NCBI GenBank assembly: GCA_017501465.1 | Contig: JAFVWY010000013.1 | Span: 1 to 64,000 of the forward strand | Source: Bacilli bacterium | GTDB lineage: Bacteria > Bacillota_I > Bacilli_A > ML615J-28 > CAG-313 | Direction of reading: 5' to 3' | DNA: 64,000 bases | Shown here: piece after piece, positions 1 through 14,550 of the stretch | Position numbering within the stretch: the first letter of the stretch is position 1 | Layout: each line of letters starts with the position of its first letter | The notes under the pieces: model-generated | The model's database searches: none | What the model was told of the DNA's origin: nothing | The model's input: the letters and a program-made list of their open reading frames with translations, nothing else | Position numbers and translations under genes: made by a program

Positions 1-653
1 TAGAAGGTAAATGTGAATGTGGCGAAGTTGATCCAAATTATGTTCCACCTCATGTTCATGAATTCATAGAAGGTAAATGTGAATGTGGCGAAGTTGATCC
101 AAATTATGTTCCACCTCATGTTCATGAATTCATAGAAGGTAAATGTGAATGTGGCGAAGTTGATCCAAATTATGTTCCACCTCATGTTCATGAATTCGTA
201 GAAGGTAAATGTGAATGTGGTGAAGTTGATCCAAATTATGTGGCTCAAGAAGAAGAACATGTAGAAACTTTCGACTCAACTTTAGCAACTCATAATATGG
301 AAGAACTAATTCAAGAAAGTGTTACTGTTGAAGAGGCACACAATGCTTTAGCTGATGAACAATTAGGGGAATTAGTTGATGTTCAAGCTCAACATCCTAA
401 ATATAAAGCGGCTAAAAAAGAAAAACACATCATTAATATTGATGTAGTTTCAATGAATTATCAAAATGGTGAAACTGTTGATTTAGAATCACTTAAAGCT
501 AAAAATTTACTACCTAAAAAATGCAATTACTTTAAAGTTCTTGCAAGAGGTGTTTTAAATAAATCATTAACATTTGTTGCTAATGATTTCTCAAATGATG
601 CAATTAAGATGATTTTACTTACTGGTGGTAAAGTAGTATTAATTGAAGAATAA
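1..653 (+). CDS. CxCG-repeat protein with uL15-like C-terminal domain (5' end outside window)
   Basis: The reading frame is already open at base 3 and ends with TAA at 651-653, so the N-terminus lies upstream of the window. The visible part starts with three full and one partial copy of a 22-residue unit (HVHEF, EGKCECGEVDP, NYVPP), followed by a Glu-rich linker and a Lys-rich stretch. The last 75 or so residues resemble the C-terminal half of ribosomal protein uL15: VDLESLKAKNLL, then FKVLARGVLNKSLTF, then FSNDAIKMI and GGKVVLIEE. The glycine-rich N-terminal region of true uL15 is not visible. The GTG at 240 is an internal codon, not a start. The same CxCG unit occurs in two exported proteins of this window. 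Function is unknown; a ribosome-associated or metal-binding role is only a guess. Frame and repeats are certain; the uL15 relation is good by eye. Confidence 0.8.
   Translation, partial: EGKCECGEVDPNYVPPHVHEFIEGKCECGEVDPNYVPPHVHEFIEGKCECGEVDPNYVPPHVHEFVEGKCECGEVDPNYVAQEEEHVETFDSTLATHNMEELIQESVTVEEAHNALADEQLGELVDVQAQHPKYKAAKKEKHIINIDVVSMNYQNGETVDLESLKAKNLLPKKCNYFKVLARGVLNKSLTFVANDFSNDAIKMILLTGGKVVLIEE
3..239 (+). repeat. 66-bp in-frame tandem repeat
   Basis: Copies lie at 3-68, 69-134 and 135-200, with a partial copy at 201-239. They are almost identical at DNA level; the differences seen are ATA to GTA near 198-200 and GGC to GGT in the fourth copy. The period is 22 codons, so copy number can change without breaking the frame. 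Near-identity points to recent expansion or homogenisation. More copies may lie upstream of base 1. Confidence 0.97.
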
Positions 654-2050: not shown

Positions 2051-4048
2051 TTATCTATTTTTTCTTAGTAAGAATAAACAACATGCTGCCATTAATGGTA
2101 GAATAGAAATCATTCCCATTTGACAATTATTTTTTTCAGTTGTTGGTGGAACGAAAACTACATCTTTCTCGCCACAACTACATACACCATTAATAAATTC
2201 ATGTACATGTATATTGTTAATATTGTATGTGATTTTTTCAATAGGAACATCTTCAACTGTTGTTTTACCATAGAATGAATATGCAATTTCAAGTTTTAAC
2301 ATATCTTCTGTAATCGGAGTATTTGATGTAAAAGATAAAGTACCAGAAGATGGGAATCTATATTGTTTATCATTTATATATAAGAATAAGAAGGTTAAAG
2401 TGTTATGATCATTCATATCAACTTCAAAAGTTGCATTATAACTTCCAGATTCAACTTCTTCAATGTTAATGACGAAATCTTTAGGTTTTAAAGCTTCTGA
2501 ATCATTAATAACTTCGATAGTTTTTTCGTATGTTTTACCATTATAATCTGTAAATGTACATACATATTTATAATTTCTATTTGGTACACCATCAGCAACT
2601 AAAATATTAGTAATACCAGGACCCATGTATTTAGATACAGTAGTATTTCTGTGTTCAACATAAACACTAATTTCTTGGACATTTCCATAGGCATTTTCAG
2701 GCCATACAACATAATTTTTAAATGTTTTGTCATTCATTTCTACATGAACTTGATCTAAGAATTCGTCCATATTAAAGTTTGGATCAGTATTAGTTTTAGT
2801 TTTTAAAGTAAATTCATCAAGCAATTCACCAGAATAGCTATAGAACTTAAATGATAGCGTATCGTTTACAATTTCAACGATTGAACCTGCATAGAATCCT
2901 TGTGGATTCATATTTGAACCATTAAGTACTTTTGCGAAGAAACCGTCATTTTTACCAGTGTATGTTTTTGCACCTGCACAACCACCAATAACATAAGTTA
3001 CACCGGCTTTTGTGTTTTCTTTGTCTTGATAAATTTGATAAGTTCTAGCATAAACATGTTCGTGACCACTAATAGCAAGGTCTACGCCATATTCTTCAAA
3101 AGTATCACGCCAAATGCCCTTCATTTTAGAAGCATCACTTGCATAGACACCTGTAGAATAACATCCAGGATGAGTTACAACGACAATAAATTTACTTGGA
3201 TTATTTTTAACCACATTTTTGAACCATTCAACTTGTTCAAAATATTGGTTATCTCCATTTGAACGGCTCATTGTATCTAACATAATAAACAAAGTGTCAT
3301 TATATTTAAAGTAGTAAGAAGAATTCATTCTTGCATCAATACCATTTTTTGGATTATTGAAATATTGATTATAAATAGATGCATCGACATAAGTCGCTAA
3401 TGAACTATGATATAATTCATGATTACCTGGAACTGTAGCTTGTAAAAATTCATGATTTAGATTAGGCATGTGTTTGTCTAAAGCATTCCATTCTTCTTCA
3501 TATCCACCTCTATCAACAATATCACCTGCAGTGATAAAGAAGTTAATATTTTCGTTAATAGAATATAATTTTTTAACTAAATTATTTGAATATTGGAAAT
3601 TAGATCCACTTGCTTGGGTATCACAAAGAACACCAAATGTTACCTTATTAGGATTACCTGTTTTAAAAGAACAAATTTCTGAACTATAGTCACCACATTT
3701 TACTTGATAGTAATATTTAGTGTTAGCTTTAAGGCCAGAAACATTAGCTTGACAAACATATCTTTCAGCAAAAACTGTATTTGATTGATTGTTTGTCATA
3801 CCCTTAGAGTATACATGTTGTTCAACTTCATATTCGGTAGCATTTTGCATGTTGCTATATTCTGAAAGATAAAATTCAGTATCTGCAGAACTAGAATGCC
3901 AGTTAAAGCCTGCTGAAGTTGAATCAACGCCAACAGATGCTTTAAGATTATAACAATAGTTAGTATTTGCACTAATTGTTAAAGGGTTTATTAATAATAG
4001 CAAAAATGCTAAAGCAATAAATGAGATTGTTTTGATTATTTTTTTCAT
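2051..4048 (-). CDS. exported purple-acid-phosphatase-like metallophosphoesterase with CxCG module and C-terminal anchor
   Basis: This 665-residue protein has a signal peptide (MKKIIKTISFIALAF...), then a fibronectin-like domain with YYYQVKCGD as in purple acid phosphatases. The calcineurin-like core follows: FGVLCDTQ, TAGDIVDRGG, TVPGNHELYH, VVTHPGC and SGHEHVYAR, which supply the usual Asp, Asn and His metal ligands. Two or more beta-rich regions follow, then an HVHEF-NGVCSCGE module at about 614-626 and a hydrophobic segment ending LLRKNR, typical of a C-terminal membrane anchor without LPXTG. It probably releases phosphate from organic substrates outside the cell; the substrate is unknown. 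AGGAG lies before ATG at 4048. Monocistronic. Confidence 0.88.
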   Translation of the reverse strand: MKKIIKTISFIALAFLLLLINPLTISANTNYCYNLKASVGVDSTSAGFNWHSSSADTEFYLSEYSNMQNATEYEVEQHVYSKGMTNNQSNTVFAERYVCQANVSGLKANTKYYYQVKCGDYSSEICSFKTGNPNKVTFGVLCDTQASGSNFQYSNNLVKKLYSINENINFFITAGDIVDRGGYEEEWNALDKHMPNLNHEFLQATVPGNHELYHSSLATYVDASIYNQYFNNPKNGIDARMNSSYYFKYNDTLFIMLDTMSRSNGDNQYFEQVEWFKNVVKNNPSKFIVVVTHPGCYSTGVYASDASKMKGIWRDTFEEYGVDLAISGHEHVYARTYQIYQDKENTKAGVTYVIGGCAGAKTYTGKNDGFFAKVLNGSNMNPQGFYAGSIVEIVNDTLSFKFYSYSGELLDEFTLKTKTNTDPNFNMDEFLDQVHVEMNDKTFKNYVVWPENAYGNVQEISVYVEHRNTTVSKYMGPGITNILVADGVPNRNYKYVCTFTDYNGKTYEKTIEVINDSEALKPKDFVINIEEVESGSYNATFEVDMNDHNTLTFLFLYINDKQYRFPSSGTLSFTSNTPITEDMLKLEIAYSFYGKTTVEDVPIEKITYNINNIHVHEFINGVCSCGEKDVVFVPPTTEKNNCQMGMISILPLMAACCLFLLRKNR

Positions 4049-10555: not shown

Positions 10556-11734
10556 ATGGTTAATTTTGAATTTTATTCACCAACTAAGATTTTTTTTGGT
10601 AAAGATGTTGAATTAAAGGTTGGTAATGTCATTAAAGAAAAGGGCTATAAAAAAGTACTTTTACATTATGGGAAATCTTCGATTATTAAAAGTGGGTTAT
10701 ATGATAGAATTATAAATTCATTAAAGGAAAATCAAATAGATTATTTAGAATTAGGGGGTGTAGAACCCAATCCTAAAATCGATTTAGTAAGAAAAGGCGT
10801 ACAACTAGTAAAAGAAGCAGAAGTTGATTTAATTTTAGCGGTAGGTGGAGGCAGTGTTATAGATTCTGCTAAGCTAATTGGTGTAGGAGCTAAAAGCATG
10901 GTTGATCCATGGCTATACAGTATACAAAAAGAGACTCCATTGGAAACAGTGGATCTAATGGTTATATTAACGATTGCTGCAGCGGGCAGTGAATTAAGTA
11001 ATTCGTGTGTTATTACAAACCCTGATGTAACACTAAAAAGAGGATTTAATAGTGAAATTATTAGACCTAAATATGCTTTTTTAAATCCTGAATTAACTTA
11101 TAGTGTTTCTAAATTTCAAACAGGGTGTGGCATTGTTGATATCTTAATGCATACATTAGAAAGATATTTAGTTCATGAAGATGATGCCAACTTAACTTTT
11201 AGATTTGCTGAAGGTTTAATGAAAACAGTATTAGAAGAAGGACTAAAAGCTATTAATAATCCATATGACTATACATCAAGGGCTAATTTAATGTTAGCAA
11301 GTAGTTTATCTCATAATGGTTTAACCGGCATGGGCGTTAAATGGTTTTTTACGGTTCATAAACTAGAACATGAATTAAGTGGCTTTTATGATGAAGTAGC
11401 ACATGCAGCCGGACTTTCTATTTTGTATCCTGCATGGGCTAGATTTATTTCTAAAAAGAATTCAAAAAAATTGGCAATGTTTGCACGAAATGTTATGAAT
11501 ATAGAAAATTCTGGTGATGATTTTGTTGATGCAAACAAAGGAATTGATAAATTAGAAGACTATTTTGAATTGATTGGTATGCCTACTAGAATGACAGACT
11601 TAGGTTTAACAAATGTAAAATTTGAAGAAATGGCTGATTCTGCAACTGATTTTGGAAAAAAATGCGTTTTAGGCATTGAAAACTTAGATAAATATGATAT
11701 AATAGAAATATACAAAACATCTTATAATAGATAG
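10556..11734 (+). CDS. iron-containing alcohol dehydrogenase (BDH-type)
   Basis: This 392-residue enzyme belongs to the group III, iron-dependent alcohol dehydrogenases that interconvert aldehydes and alcohols with NAD(P)H during fermentation. The dinucleotide site is AVGGGSVIDSAKLIG. Metal-ligand regions include GCGIVDILMHTLERY and HAAGLSILYPAW. The N-terminal FEFYSPTKIFFGK matches butanol-dehydrogenase-like YqhD/BdhA members. The start is ATG 10556, one base after the cyclophilin stop; the longer frame from 10478 lies inside that gene and is rejected. Its substrate cannot be told from sequence. Confidence 0.93.
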   Translation: MVNFEFYSPTKIFFGKDVELKVGNVIKEKGYKKVLLHYGKSSIIKSGLYDRIINSLKENQIDYLELGGVEPNPKIDLVRKGVQLVKEAEVDLILAVGGGSVIDSAKLIGVGAKSMVDPWLYSIQKETPLETVDLMVILTIAAAGSELSNSCVITNPDVTLKRGFNSEIIRPKYAFLNPELTYSVSKFQTGCGIVDILMHTLERYLVHEDDANLTFRFAEGLMKTVLEEGLKAINNPYDYTSRANLMLASSLSHNGLTGMGVKWFFTVHKLEHELSGFYDEVAHAAGLSILYPAWARFISKKNSKKLAMFARNVMNIENSGDDFVDANKGIDKLEDYFELIGMPTRMTDLGLTNVKFEEMADSATDFGKKCVLGIENLDKYDIIEIYKTSYNR

Positions 11735-11745
11735 AAAGGAAAAAT

Positions 11746-14550
11746 ATGAAAAAATTAGTTTTATTATTTGTTTTTGTAGTAATCGGTTTTTTCACTCTTG
11801 TTGGTTGCCAAACTGGTGGTAATGGACAAGGCGGTGGAGATACTCATGAACATGCTTATGTAGATGGAAAATGTGAATGTGGTGCAACAGATCCTAATTA
11901 TGTTGAACCATCTACAAAATGGAAAGTTTCTTTCTACGATGGTAAAGAACTTTTAGAAGAAAAAGAATATGAATATAGAGAAAGTATTGAATTCCCTGAA
12001 GCAGAAGAAAAAGAAGGCCAAATTTTTGTTGGTTGGTTTGATGCTGATGATGTAGAATTCACATTAACACTTATGCCAAAAAAAGACTTAGTTTTAACAG
12101 CTAAATATGAAGCTGGTTATAAATATGAATTCGTTGATTATGATGGTACTGTAATTTCTAGTGGTGTTGTAAAACCAGGTGAAGAAATTACTGTTCCTAA
12201 AGATCCTGAAAGAGCTAAAGAAGGAACAACTATTTATACATTCAATGGTTGGACTCCAGCTGTAACAGATACTATTACTGAACATACAACTTTTACAGCT
12301 ACTTATACTAGTCAAAGTGTATCTACAGTTACTTTTGATTTAGATGGTGGTAACTGGAATTATTATAGTTATGACGACGTAGTTAAAGATTTATTAAAAG
12401 ATTATAATAAATTTAGTGGAAAGAGTTATACAACAGGTTCTCTTCCAAATGGTGCTTGGGAACTTATCAACTTCCATACTTTCTATTTTAATGGCTCTAA
12501 TGCTGCTAAATGGAAATGGTTATTAGAATATTTAGGTGAAGTTGGTTCACCAGCTAACCGTTCTGCATGTAAGACTTTATCTAAATCTACATCTGTTAAT
12601 AGTTTCACAGCAGCTAATGATAATTATAAATACTCAGTTTCATATGAATTAAGAGCATTTATCAGAGGCGAAAAGATGACTAGCAACGCTAGTTTCCCAA
12701 CAGCTGATTATTCTCAATATGATTTACAAAATGGTTTCTGGGATTACTATTTACCTACAATTGAGTCTTCAATGTATAAATATGTAGATTCTTCAAAACC
12801 AAAAATTCAATTACCTGCCAAAGCTTATAAACAAAATTATGAATTTGCTGGTTGGTATGATAATGCTGAATTTAGTGGTTCTCCAATCACAAGCTATACA
12901 GTTACTGAAGATGTAACTATTTATGCTAAATTCGTACCACTTGATCCGGTAGAATCAATTGTTATTAGTAATGAAATTACTGAAATGGAAAAATTTACAG
13001 CTTATACATTACAATGGCAAGTTAATCCAACTGAAGTTAAAAATAAACAAGTTAAGTTTAAATCAAGCAACACTGCAGTTCTTTCTGTTACTAGTAATGG
13101 TGTTATAACAGCACTTGCTGATGGTGTTGCAACAATTACTATAACTTCTGTATTAACTCCATCAGTAGTTGCTACATTAGAAATTGAAGTATATTCTCCA
13201 AATCACTTTGTAATTGAATATGTTGGTGAATCATATGTAAAAGCAGGCGAAACTACTGAATTATCTGCAAATTATATTTATCGTGATGGTTCAGAAGCTG
13301 CAATTACTTGGGAAAGTTTAACTCCAAGTATTGCTACTGTTAATAATGGTGTTGTAACTGGTATTCAAGCTGGTGTTGCTACTATTAGAGCAATTGCCGA
13401 TGGTAATGCTGAACAATATCAAGATTTCGTTGTTACTGTTGTTGAAAATGAATTATCAAGTGTATTACAAGCTGTATTAAATGCTCACGAAAGTAATGCA
13501 TTTGTTAAATATAATTTAGGTATTGGTGCTGGAACTCCTGCTTATTACACTGATGTAATTGGTAGTGTTTCTAAGTTATTATTTGAAGAATTTGTAGTTG
13601 ATAATAAATATTATGCAACACAACAAGCAAATAGTAAGAATCATGGTGGTTTAATTTCATCACATGAATTTGTTACTGTTCACTATACTGGTAATATGAG
13701 TAAGACTGCAGATGCTGCTGCAAATGCAAGTTATTTCGCAAATGAAACTAGTACATCAATTCACTATACAACTGGTAATGATGGTATTTACTATATTCTT
13801 GATGAAAAATATGTAGGTCATCATGCTGGTGATGGAACTAGTGTTAAATTTGAATGGAATCCAACAGGCGTATATTATCAAGAATCAGATCCTGAAACTC
13901 CAGTATGGGGTATTAACTCTGACTCTAAATTTACAATTAATGGGCAAGTAACAAGTATTAGTGTTCCTACAGGTTCAACTCCTCAAACTCAAAAGGTAAC
14001 TGATCCAAGATGGATTAATGATATGGGTCTTTCTTGGAAGGTTGTTGATGGTCAATATTATATGGGTACTACTTGGTGGTGTTATTCACAAATATCTGAA
14101 GGTAGAATTTGTAACAAGGGTGGTAATAACAACTCAATTGGTATTGAATCATGTGTTAACCAAGGTTCAGATTTATGGTATACATGGCAAAAAACTGCTA
14201 GATTAGTAGCTGATATCATGATTAGAAATAATTTAGATATTACTAGAGTTGTAGGTCACCATTTCTATTCAGCAAAAGATTGTCCACAACCAATGTTAGA
14301 AAATGATTTAGAAATTTGGTATGAATTTATCGAACTTGTTAAAGCAGAATATCAAATGGCTACAGAATTTGCTGATTATGAATTATCATTTGAAGTAGTT
14401 GGTGATACAAATAGTGTTGATTCAACTGGTAGAATTAAACAAAGCCGTTACTCAGAAGTTATTACTTATAAAGTAACTGTAACTGATAAAGATGGTAATA
14501 CTGAATCAATCACTCTTGCTACTAGTATTAATGGTACATATACTAAATAA
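11746..14550 (+). CDS. large surface lipoprotein with CxCG module, InlB-like and Big2 domains and amidase_2 domain
   Basis: The 934-residue protein begins with a lipoprotein signal (LVGC, Cys about 21), then a HEHAYVDGKCECG module at about 34-46 ending DPNYV. InlB/Flg_new-like beta-grasp repeats follow (FVGWF, TFNGWTP, FAGWYDN), then two Big2-type domains (SSNTAVLSVTSNGVITAL; TPSIATVNNGVVTG). The C-terminal third is an N-acetylmuramoyl-L-alanine amidase of the T7-lysozyme type: zinc ligands fit His in TVHYTG, His in VVGHHFY and Cys in AKDCPQ, with YVGHHAGDG and SIGIESCVN between. It probably cleaves peptidoglycan stem peptides at the cell surface. AGGAAAA lies before ATG 11746. Possible roles are cell separation or germination-type wall turnover. 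Confidence 0.9.
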   Translation: MKKLVLLFVFVVIGFFTLVGCQTGGNGQGGGDTHEHAYVDGKCECGATDPNYVEPSTKWKVSFYDGKELLEEKEYEYRESIEFPEAEEKEGQIFVGWFDADDVEFTLTLMPKKDLVLTAKYEAGYKYEFVDYDGTVISSGVVKPGEEITVPKDPERAKEGTTIYTFNGWTPAVTDTITEHTTFTATYTSQSVSTVTFDLDGGNWNYYSYDDVVKDLLKDYNKFSGKSYTTGSLPNGAWELINFHTFYFNGSNAAKWKWLLEYLGEVGSPANRSACKTLSKSTSVNSFTAANDNYKYSVSYELRAFIRGEKMTSNASFPTADYSQYDLQNGFWDYYLPTIESSMYKYVDSSKPKIQLPAKAYKQNYEFAGWYDNAEFSGSPITSYTVTEDVTIYAKFVPLDPVESIVISNEITEMEKFTAYTLQWQVNPTEVKNKQVKFKSSNTAVLSVTSNGVITALADGVATITITSVLTPSVVATLEIEVYSPNHFVIEYVGESYVKAGETTELSANYIYRDGSEAAITWESLTPSIATVNNGVVTGIQAGVATIRAIADGNAEQYQDFVVTVVENELSSVLQAVLNAHESNAFVKYNLGIGAGTPAYYTDVIGSVSKLLFEEFVVDNKYYATQQANSKNHGGLISSHEFVTVHYTGNMSKTADAAANASYFANETSTSIHYTTGNDGIYYILDEKYVGHHAGDGTSVKFEWNPTGVYYQESDPETPVWGINSDSKFTINGQVTSISVPTGSTPQTQKVTDPRWINDMGLSWKVVDGQYYMGTTWWCYSQISEGRICNKGGNNNSIGIESCVNQGSDLWYTWQKTARLVADIMIRNNLDITRVVGHHFYSAKDCPQPMLENDLEIWYEFIELVKAEYQMATEFADYELSFEVVGDTNSVDSTGRIKQSRYSEVITYKVTVTDKDGNTESITLATSINGTYTK

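Follow-up and report, generated by a model that had tools for sequence, protein, structure and literature searches.

The gene at the start of the window (the 64,000-nt stretch of DNA from an uncultured gut bacterium analyzed here, whose position 1 is base 1 of contig C8) probably encodes a bitopic membrane protein with a cytosolic docking tail derived from ribosomal protein uL15, and it is a member of a large family whose proteins share this tail. ORF reading gave a plus-strand frame from 3 to 653 (216 codons plus a stop codon) without a 5′ end, open at the first edge of the window. The 5′ part of the gene is missing on C8 because the assembly break falls inside a repeat array. The first-pass annotation had described one single frame joining repeats to a uL15-like segment; this holds for the part on C8 but not beyond it, where the N-terminus is cut off by the contig break. 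The features of the gene are as follows.

3..653, plus strand: 3′ portion of the gene, comprising the repeat spacer, the linker, and the uL15-like tail; read as an open frame at the contig start
1..241, plus strand: tandem 66-bp repeats, 3.7 copies, detected by TRF
318..383, plus strand: conserved linker SVTVEEAHNALADEQLGELVDV, from alignment A4 and the AF2 model
420..644, plus strand: uL15-like C-terminal globular domain (KEKHIINID...KVLARG.LNKSL...DFS..A.KMI.LTGG), from PF00828, PDB profile matches, predicted fold, and family HMM

A unique stretch links the repeats in frame to the linker and the C-terminal 75-residue domain. The gene precedes infC, and its downstream neighbors infC-rpmI-rplT are present as first described; no Rfam element was found between the window gene and infC at the gathering threshold.

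We analyzed the tail by profile searches and structure prediction. Its 75 residues (420..644) matched Pfam Ribosomal_L27A (PF00828) with E-values of 2e-10 to 3e-11 and 41–44 bits, and the window domain, at 41.2 bits, is above the curated cut-off of 21.5 bits. The match to TIGR01071 (rplO_bact; E=5e-10) reached 39.3 bits, which is below the equivalog cut-off of 77.95, and spanned only model positions 68–143 of 144, i.e., the second half. When a profile of the window protein's relatives was compared with all PDB sequences, the best E-value was 2e-13, and the matches at E<=0.01 were only uL15, uL15c, L27A, and eL18/L18e chains, plus one chain annotated as uncharacterized. For 252..650, the AF2 model showed pLDDT >90 through most of the domain and a beta-alpha-alpha-beta arrangement for the linker. 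Its best Foldseek matches were ribosomal uL15 chains, the one at rank 2 having an rmsd of 1.8 Å over 77 columns with 34% identity. The PROSITE L15 signature, applied as a regular expression, also matched the window protein. The C-terminus is a genuine uL15 globular domain, and it resembles rplO in the sequence and fold of the C-terminal globular half and in the spacing of the L15 signature. A relationship that had been called by eye is thus borne out by the Pfam, PDB, and AF2 results, and a signal peptide together with a better match to an exported beta domain was not found.

However, the window protein is not ribosomal uL15. Compared with rplO, its tail is without the RNA-threading half, scores below equivalog level, has lost basic residues, and is joined to a spacer and a probable transmembrane (TM) segment outside the spc operon, in coexistence with a true rplO. 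A search for a separate genuine rplO, proposed in the first-pass annotation, located it at C7:71328-71543 (152 aa), in the spc operon, adjoining secY (L077), and with the glycine-rich N-terminal half present. As the true rplO belongs to the spc operon of a different contig, the window gene, which is not upstream of secY, is not rplO. The Gly/Arg-rich N-terminal extension of uL15 threads into 23S rRNA; it is absent in the window protein, where the Cys/His repeats and the linker stand in its place. As for individual residues, the K of 'HKFS' (K 88% and R 11% in rplO) becomes D 58%, E 18%, and A 8% in the tails, and the residue right after the serine is K in 79% of Bacilli rplO but mostly L or I in the tails. 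The rplO 'HKFSKSA' region reads ANDFSNDA in the window, with the conserved basic residues missing. The tails keep the core motif K[VIL]L-A-x-G...L...FS..A...I...GG, have conserved residues of their own (KKxIINID, LARGxLDK, KM, and LTGG), and range in net charge from -8 to +10. A tree was built for the 75-residue domain from only 73 columns, and its bootstrap had not settled; in it, the 34 Bacilli rplO rows formed one clade (99/96 support) with the tails outside, and one long-branched Arsenophonus rplO was placed among the tails.

A total of 80 distinct non-rplO ORFs with the uL15-like domain were collected from gut Bacilli and Clostridia MAGs; some are cut by contig ends, and nearly all the genomes are MAGs. 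The domain lies at the extreme C-terminus in all 80, 0–18 residues from the end, in proteins of 118 to >2,700 aa. With the domain profile, and counting frames above 175 aa, non-rplO members were present in 10 of the 43 genomes of the order and in at least 35 of the 395 sampled genomes of the class. Further members came from Anaeroplasmataceae, other uncultured Bacilli, and Clostridia MAGs, mostly of animal gut. When only the window protein was used to scan the genome contigs, there were no matches; alignment A2 was too diverse for the pattern search, and the closer alignment A3 gave 55 loci. Against the family HMM, the window tail scored 115–118 bits and ended 2 residues from the C-terminus, although it departs from the family at a few signature positions (EKHIINID for KKxIINID). 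The tail is preceded by a SVxEAxxxISDEVA linker, whose window version is SVTVEEAHNALADEQLGELV, and the profile match runs through it. Typical tails scored 110–159 bits with the linker-plus-tail profile, whereas rplO stayed at <70 bits and matched the tail part only; diverged tails of some genomes gave 55–69 bits but lie in long frames. No report of uL15-domain membrane proteins was found in the literature searched, in which the coverage of subscription journals was incomplete; within that literature, this large family has not been found.

The usual order in the family is one or more TM segments, a spacer that is acidic or repetitive, in many members a YdhG/YjbR-like domain, the linker, and the uL15 tail. 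The N-terminal parts vary from a signal peptide with an ectodomain to a simple N-terminal TM segment, and the spacers of relatives consist of acidic, EPEP, or coiled-coil-like repeats instead of Cys/His repeats. With hydropathy and the positive-inside rule as the sole basis, the last TM segment is followed by basic residues, with more K/R on its C-terminal side in 37 of 50 proteins and not in the other 13. Membrane location is not universal among the tail proteins, as the g3 members (L009–L013) show no TM segment and L195, L208, and L211 look soluble. In several genomes, at least two different tail proteins are encoded. Neighboring genes, read by eye, differ between members: rpsL-rpsG in g3, the leuS region in g7 and g15, and elsewhere dnaB/dnaI-thrS-like genes, PhoH-like genes, or polysaccharide genes. 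A functional link of the window gene to infC-rpmI-rplT was considered and rejected, since this adjacency is not conserved.

The repeats themselves were as first described, namely near-identical 66-bp units with 98% matches and no indels. Each unit reads HVHEFIEGKCECGEVDPNYVPP, and the pattern HVHEF[IV]EGKCECGEVDPNYVPP contains an HxH and a CxC pair. Four potential ligands (HxH...CxC) are present per unit, and the units are probably able to bind zinc, as judged from sequence. No Pfam or NCBIfam model was found for the HxH...GxCxCG repeat. Among the 80 tail proteins, only the window protein carries Cys/His repeats. In its own genome, the HxH...CxC module occurs in lipoproteins directly behind the lipobox and ahead of C-terminal anchors, and all other Cys/His modules read there appear extracytoplasmic. 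Within the order, g1 and g2 are the only genera where the module is common, reaching at most 46 matches per genome; one weak match lies elsewhere in the order, and at one place in the order the identity to the pair of units in the window is 93%. The surface repeats of this lineage and the window array are alike in having a near-identical 22-residue unit in tandem arrays, but the former stand after a lipobox or before a C-terminal anchor, whereas the window array would bridge a TM segment and a domain of cytosolic type. The window units are 98% alike among themselves, compared with 72–85% to long matches elsewhere in the genome. In the simplest scenario, the window protein obtained its spacer by recruiting a lineage-specific spacer of surface proteins, or came to share it with them through recombination.

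Further modules lie within the window. At 11731-14550 (plus strand), HxH...GxCxCG modules stand directly behind the lipobox of large lipoproteins, and many such loci are found in G000, G002, and G009. At 2051-4048 (minus strand), an exported purple-acid-phosphatase-like metallophosphoesterase carries one HxH...CxCG module and the C-terminal anchor NNCQMGMISILPLMAACCLFLLRKNR, which the C-terminus of L007 (GGGCSMGVVAVLPVVAAVALVLLRKREF) resembles; both consist of Cys-x-Met-Gly, a hydrophobic stretch, and RK, and are not LPXTG anchors.

A DNA search of the same genome gave a candidate for the start of the array. At C2:124805-125037, an RBS-ATG is followed by a TM segment, EEITEEVVEEAPVEE, and a first repeat, and the frame reads MKSLVVLSAELSYFDMMTLAALLVLTVGLFVGIYILFVQHRNVNAYANKLPEEITEEVVEEAPVEEHVHEFIEGKC. 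By eye, this TM segment has no signal-peptidase-like or lipobox end. The C2 repeat is identical to the window array at 31 of 32 bases, whereas any other copy compared in the genome reached at most 27 of 32. From these sequences, we infer a single gene split between the contigs, with its 5′ end on C2 and its 3′ end on C8; the join is made by one 32-bp repeat match beside a chimeric junction. The junction was seen as an abrupt change of GC content right after the C2 repeat, from about 20–30% to 58%, so that C2 ends in a chimera created within the repeat. The closest architecture among the relatives is that of L153 (Clostridia MAG), where TM segments are followed within one 255-aa ORF by a spacer reading EPEPEP, then ESITVEEAHDAMDD, and finally the uL15 tail. 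The putative join is supported because this order matches that of the TM segment, EEITEEVVEEAP plus repeats, ESVTVEEAHNALAD, and uL15 tail. The YdhG/YjbR-like domain is absent from the window frame, and likewise from L153 and the g3 members. When the N-terminal TM piece of C2 was searched in 100 relatives, only chance TM matches were obtained. An N-terminus of the g3 type (MAKVVLKRRSS...) was also tried as a candidate and had no match in the genome even at E<=10. The last 2.2 kb of C2 (G000:C2:125038-127241) is foreign DNA of ~58% GC, with L045 from about 1536 and L078 near the end; it holds two ORFs named by eye, one PTS-IIA-like and the other large and of surface type.

In the explanation that we favor, the TM segment on C2 would anchor the protein with the N-terminus outside and the C-terminus inside, and the tandem Cys/His array would be a spacer between this anchor and the tail, holding the C-terminal part off the membrane. 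The C-terminus would consist of the small linker and a duplicate of the uL15 globular half that left the ribosome. Because linker and tail are conserved on very different N-termini, this unit may be the working end; because different proteins of one genome carry the same tail, a shared partner is suggested. The uL15-derived domain may then be a shared cytosolic docking tail on otherwise unrelated membrane and surface proteins. A further step, which we propose only tentatively, is that this tail is a common docking tag that links the surface of the cell with a single partner inside it, which could be the ribosome, the nucleoid, or a scaffold. As the docking partner, a protein scaffold is in our view more likely than rRNA. 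ZipA-type bitopic tethers, whose topology is N-out/C-in, are similarly built from a TM segment, a flexible charged or P/Q-rich linker, and a globular cytosolic domain; however, they have no sequence relation to the window protein, whose putative binding domain is uL15-like and whose topology is only predicted.

The true homology and fold, the retained uL15 core motif, and a spacer-tether layout suited to capture would also fit a tail that binds either the large ribosomal subunit, through 23S rRNA or an adjacent r-protein such as bL35, or rRNA precursors, so that ribosomes are held at the membrane for co-translational insertion or hibernation. Nevertheless, plain ribosome docking is made less likely by the loss of the rplO basic residues, some positions being even reversed, and of the rRNA-threading half. 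The wide range of tail net charge and the full-length uL15 already in the cells also argue against this tether, and we consider it unlikely. Far less probable is the role proposed in the first-pass annotation, a ribosome- or RNA-associated protein for metal sensing or storage with the Cys/His repeats as the working part. The four ligands per module and the infC-rpmI-rplT neighborhood speak for such a role, but the likely N-terminus on C2 is a membrane anchor, and the neighbor genes vary across the family. Metal binding also fails as the function of the family, whose other members keep the tail and swap the repeats for other spacers, and the module recurs behind lipoboxes or ahead of C-terminal anchors in many surface proteins of the own genus and one sister genus.

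The extracytoplasmic appearance of the other Cys/His modules would agree with an exported surface protein, whose repeats would lie outside the cell together with the uL15-like fold, the latter serving there as a binding domain. Such a placement is very unlikely, as the tails of L070, L071, and L191 sit behind a signal peptide, an ectodomain, a TM segment, and a basic stretch, i.e., on the predicted inside, and the end of the C2 TM segment resembles neither a signal-peptidase site nor a lipobox. Lastly, the assembly of both contigs breaks at the array, on C2 with a chimeric junction right within the repeat, so a surface-lipoprotein array might likewise have been misjoined on C8 to an unrelated soluble uL15-like gene. 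Against such an artifact, the C8 array passes in frame, via its unique transition, into linker and tail, its units are closer to one another than to the long matches elsewhere, and related proteins have a tandem-repeat spacer at the equivalent position; we give it little credence, as little as the metal role.

Pfam-only annotation could mislabel the tail proteins as ribosomal protein uL15, and a widespread gut-bacterial membrane and surface family with one conserved, probably cytosolic tail would be hidden. A core ribosomal protein domain is here shown to have left the ribosome and turned modular. Docking on a common partner would reveal the inside-out organization of the surface of these bacteria, and docking on ribosomes would be a new membrane-ribosome tether. 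A tag from the surface to an internal partner, if true, would be an undescribed bacterial system linking surface and cytosol.

Many relatives contain the extra domain in one to three copies between spacer and linker. In L148, L141, L150, L193, L208, and others (A5, first ~145 columns), it is marked by SFxAKLIQS...LSYKK...SW...GR...RGKTL.VYLAL, and no Pfam or NCBIfam assignment was found for it. Foldseek matched it to the YdhG/YjbR (CyaY-like, frataxin-like) fold (9t2w_A, TMt 0.56; 2fki, TMt 0.53), a likeness that is weak (E about 0.02).

Versions with about ten TM segments also end in the tail (L201–L204, L206, L207, and L209). L201, L204, L206, L207, and L209 form a separate branch of the tail tree, and by eye L201, L204, L206, and L207 adjoin PhoH-like genes, some also RluA-type pseudouridine synthases. 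One tail protein, L182, lies on a contig labeled Gammaproteobacteria (rumen MAG); mis-binning is likely, since the protein most closely related to it comes from a Bacillales MAG. L070 and L071 (G015:C3 and G035:C5) combine a signal peptide, collagen-like Gly-x-x repeats, a TM segment, an acidic cytosolic spacer, and the uL15 tail, and adjoin leuS and a LytR-type gene.
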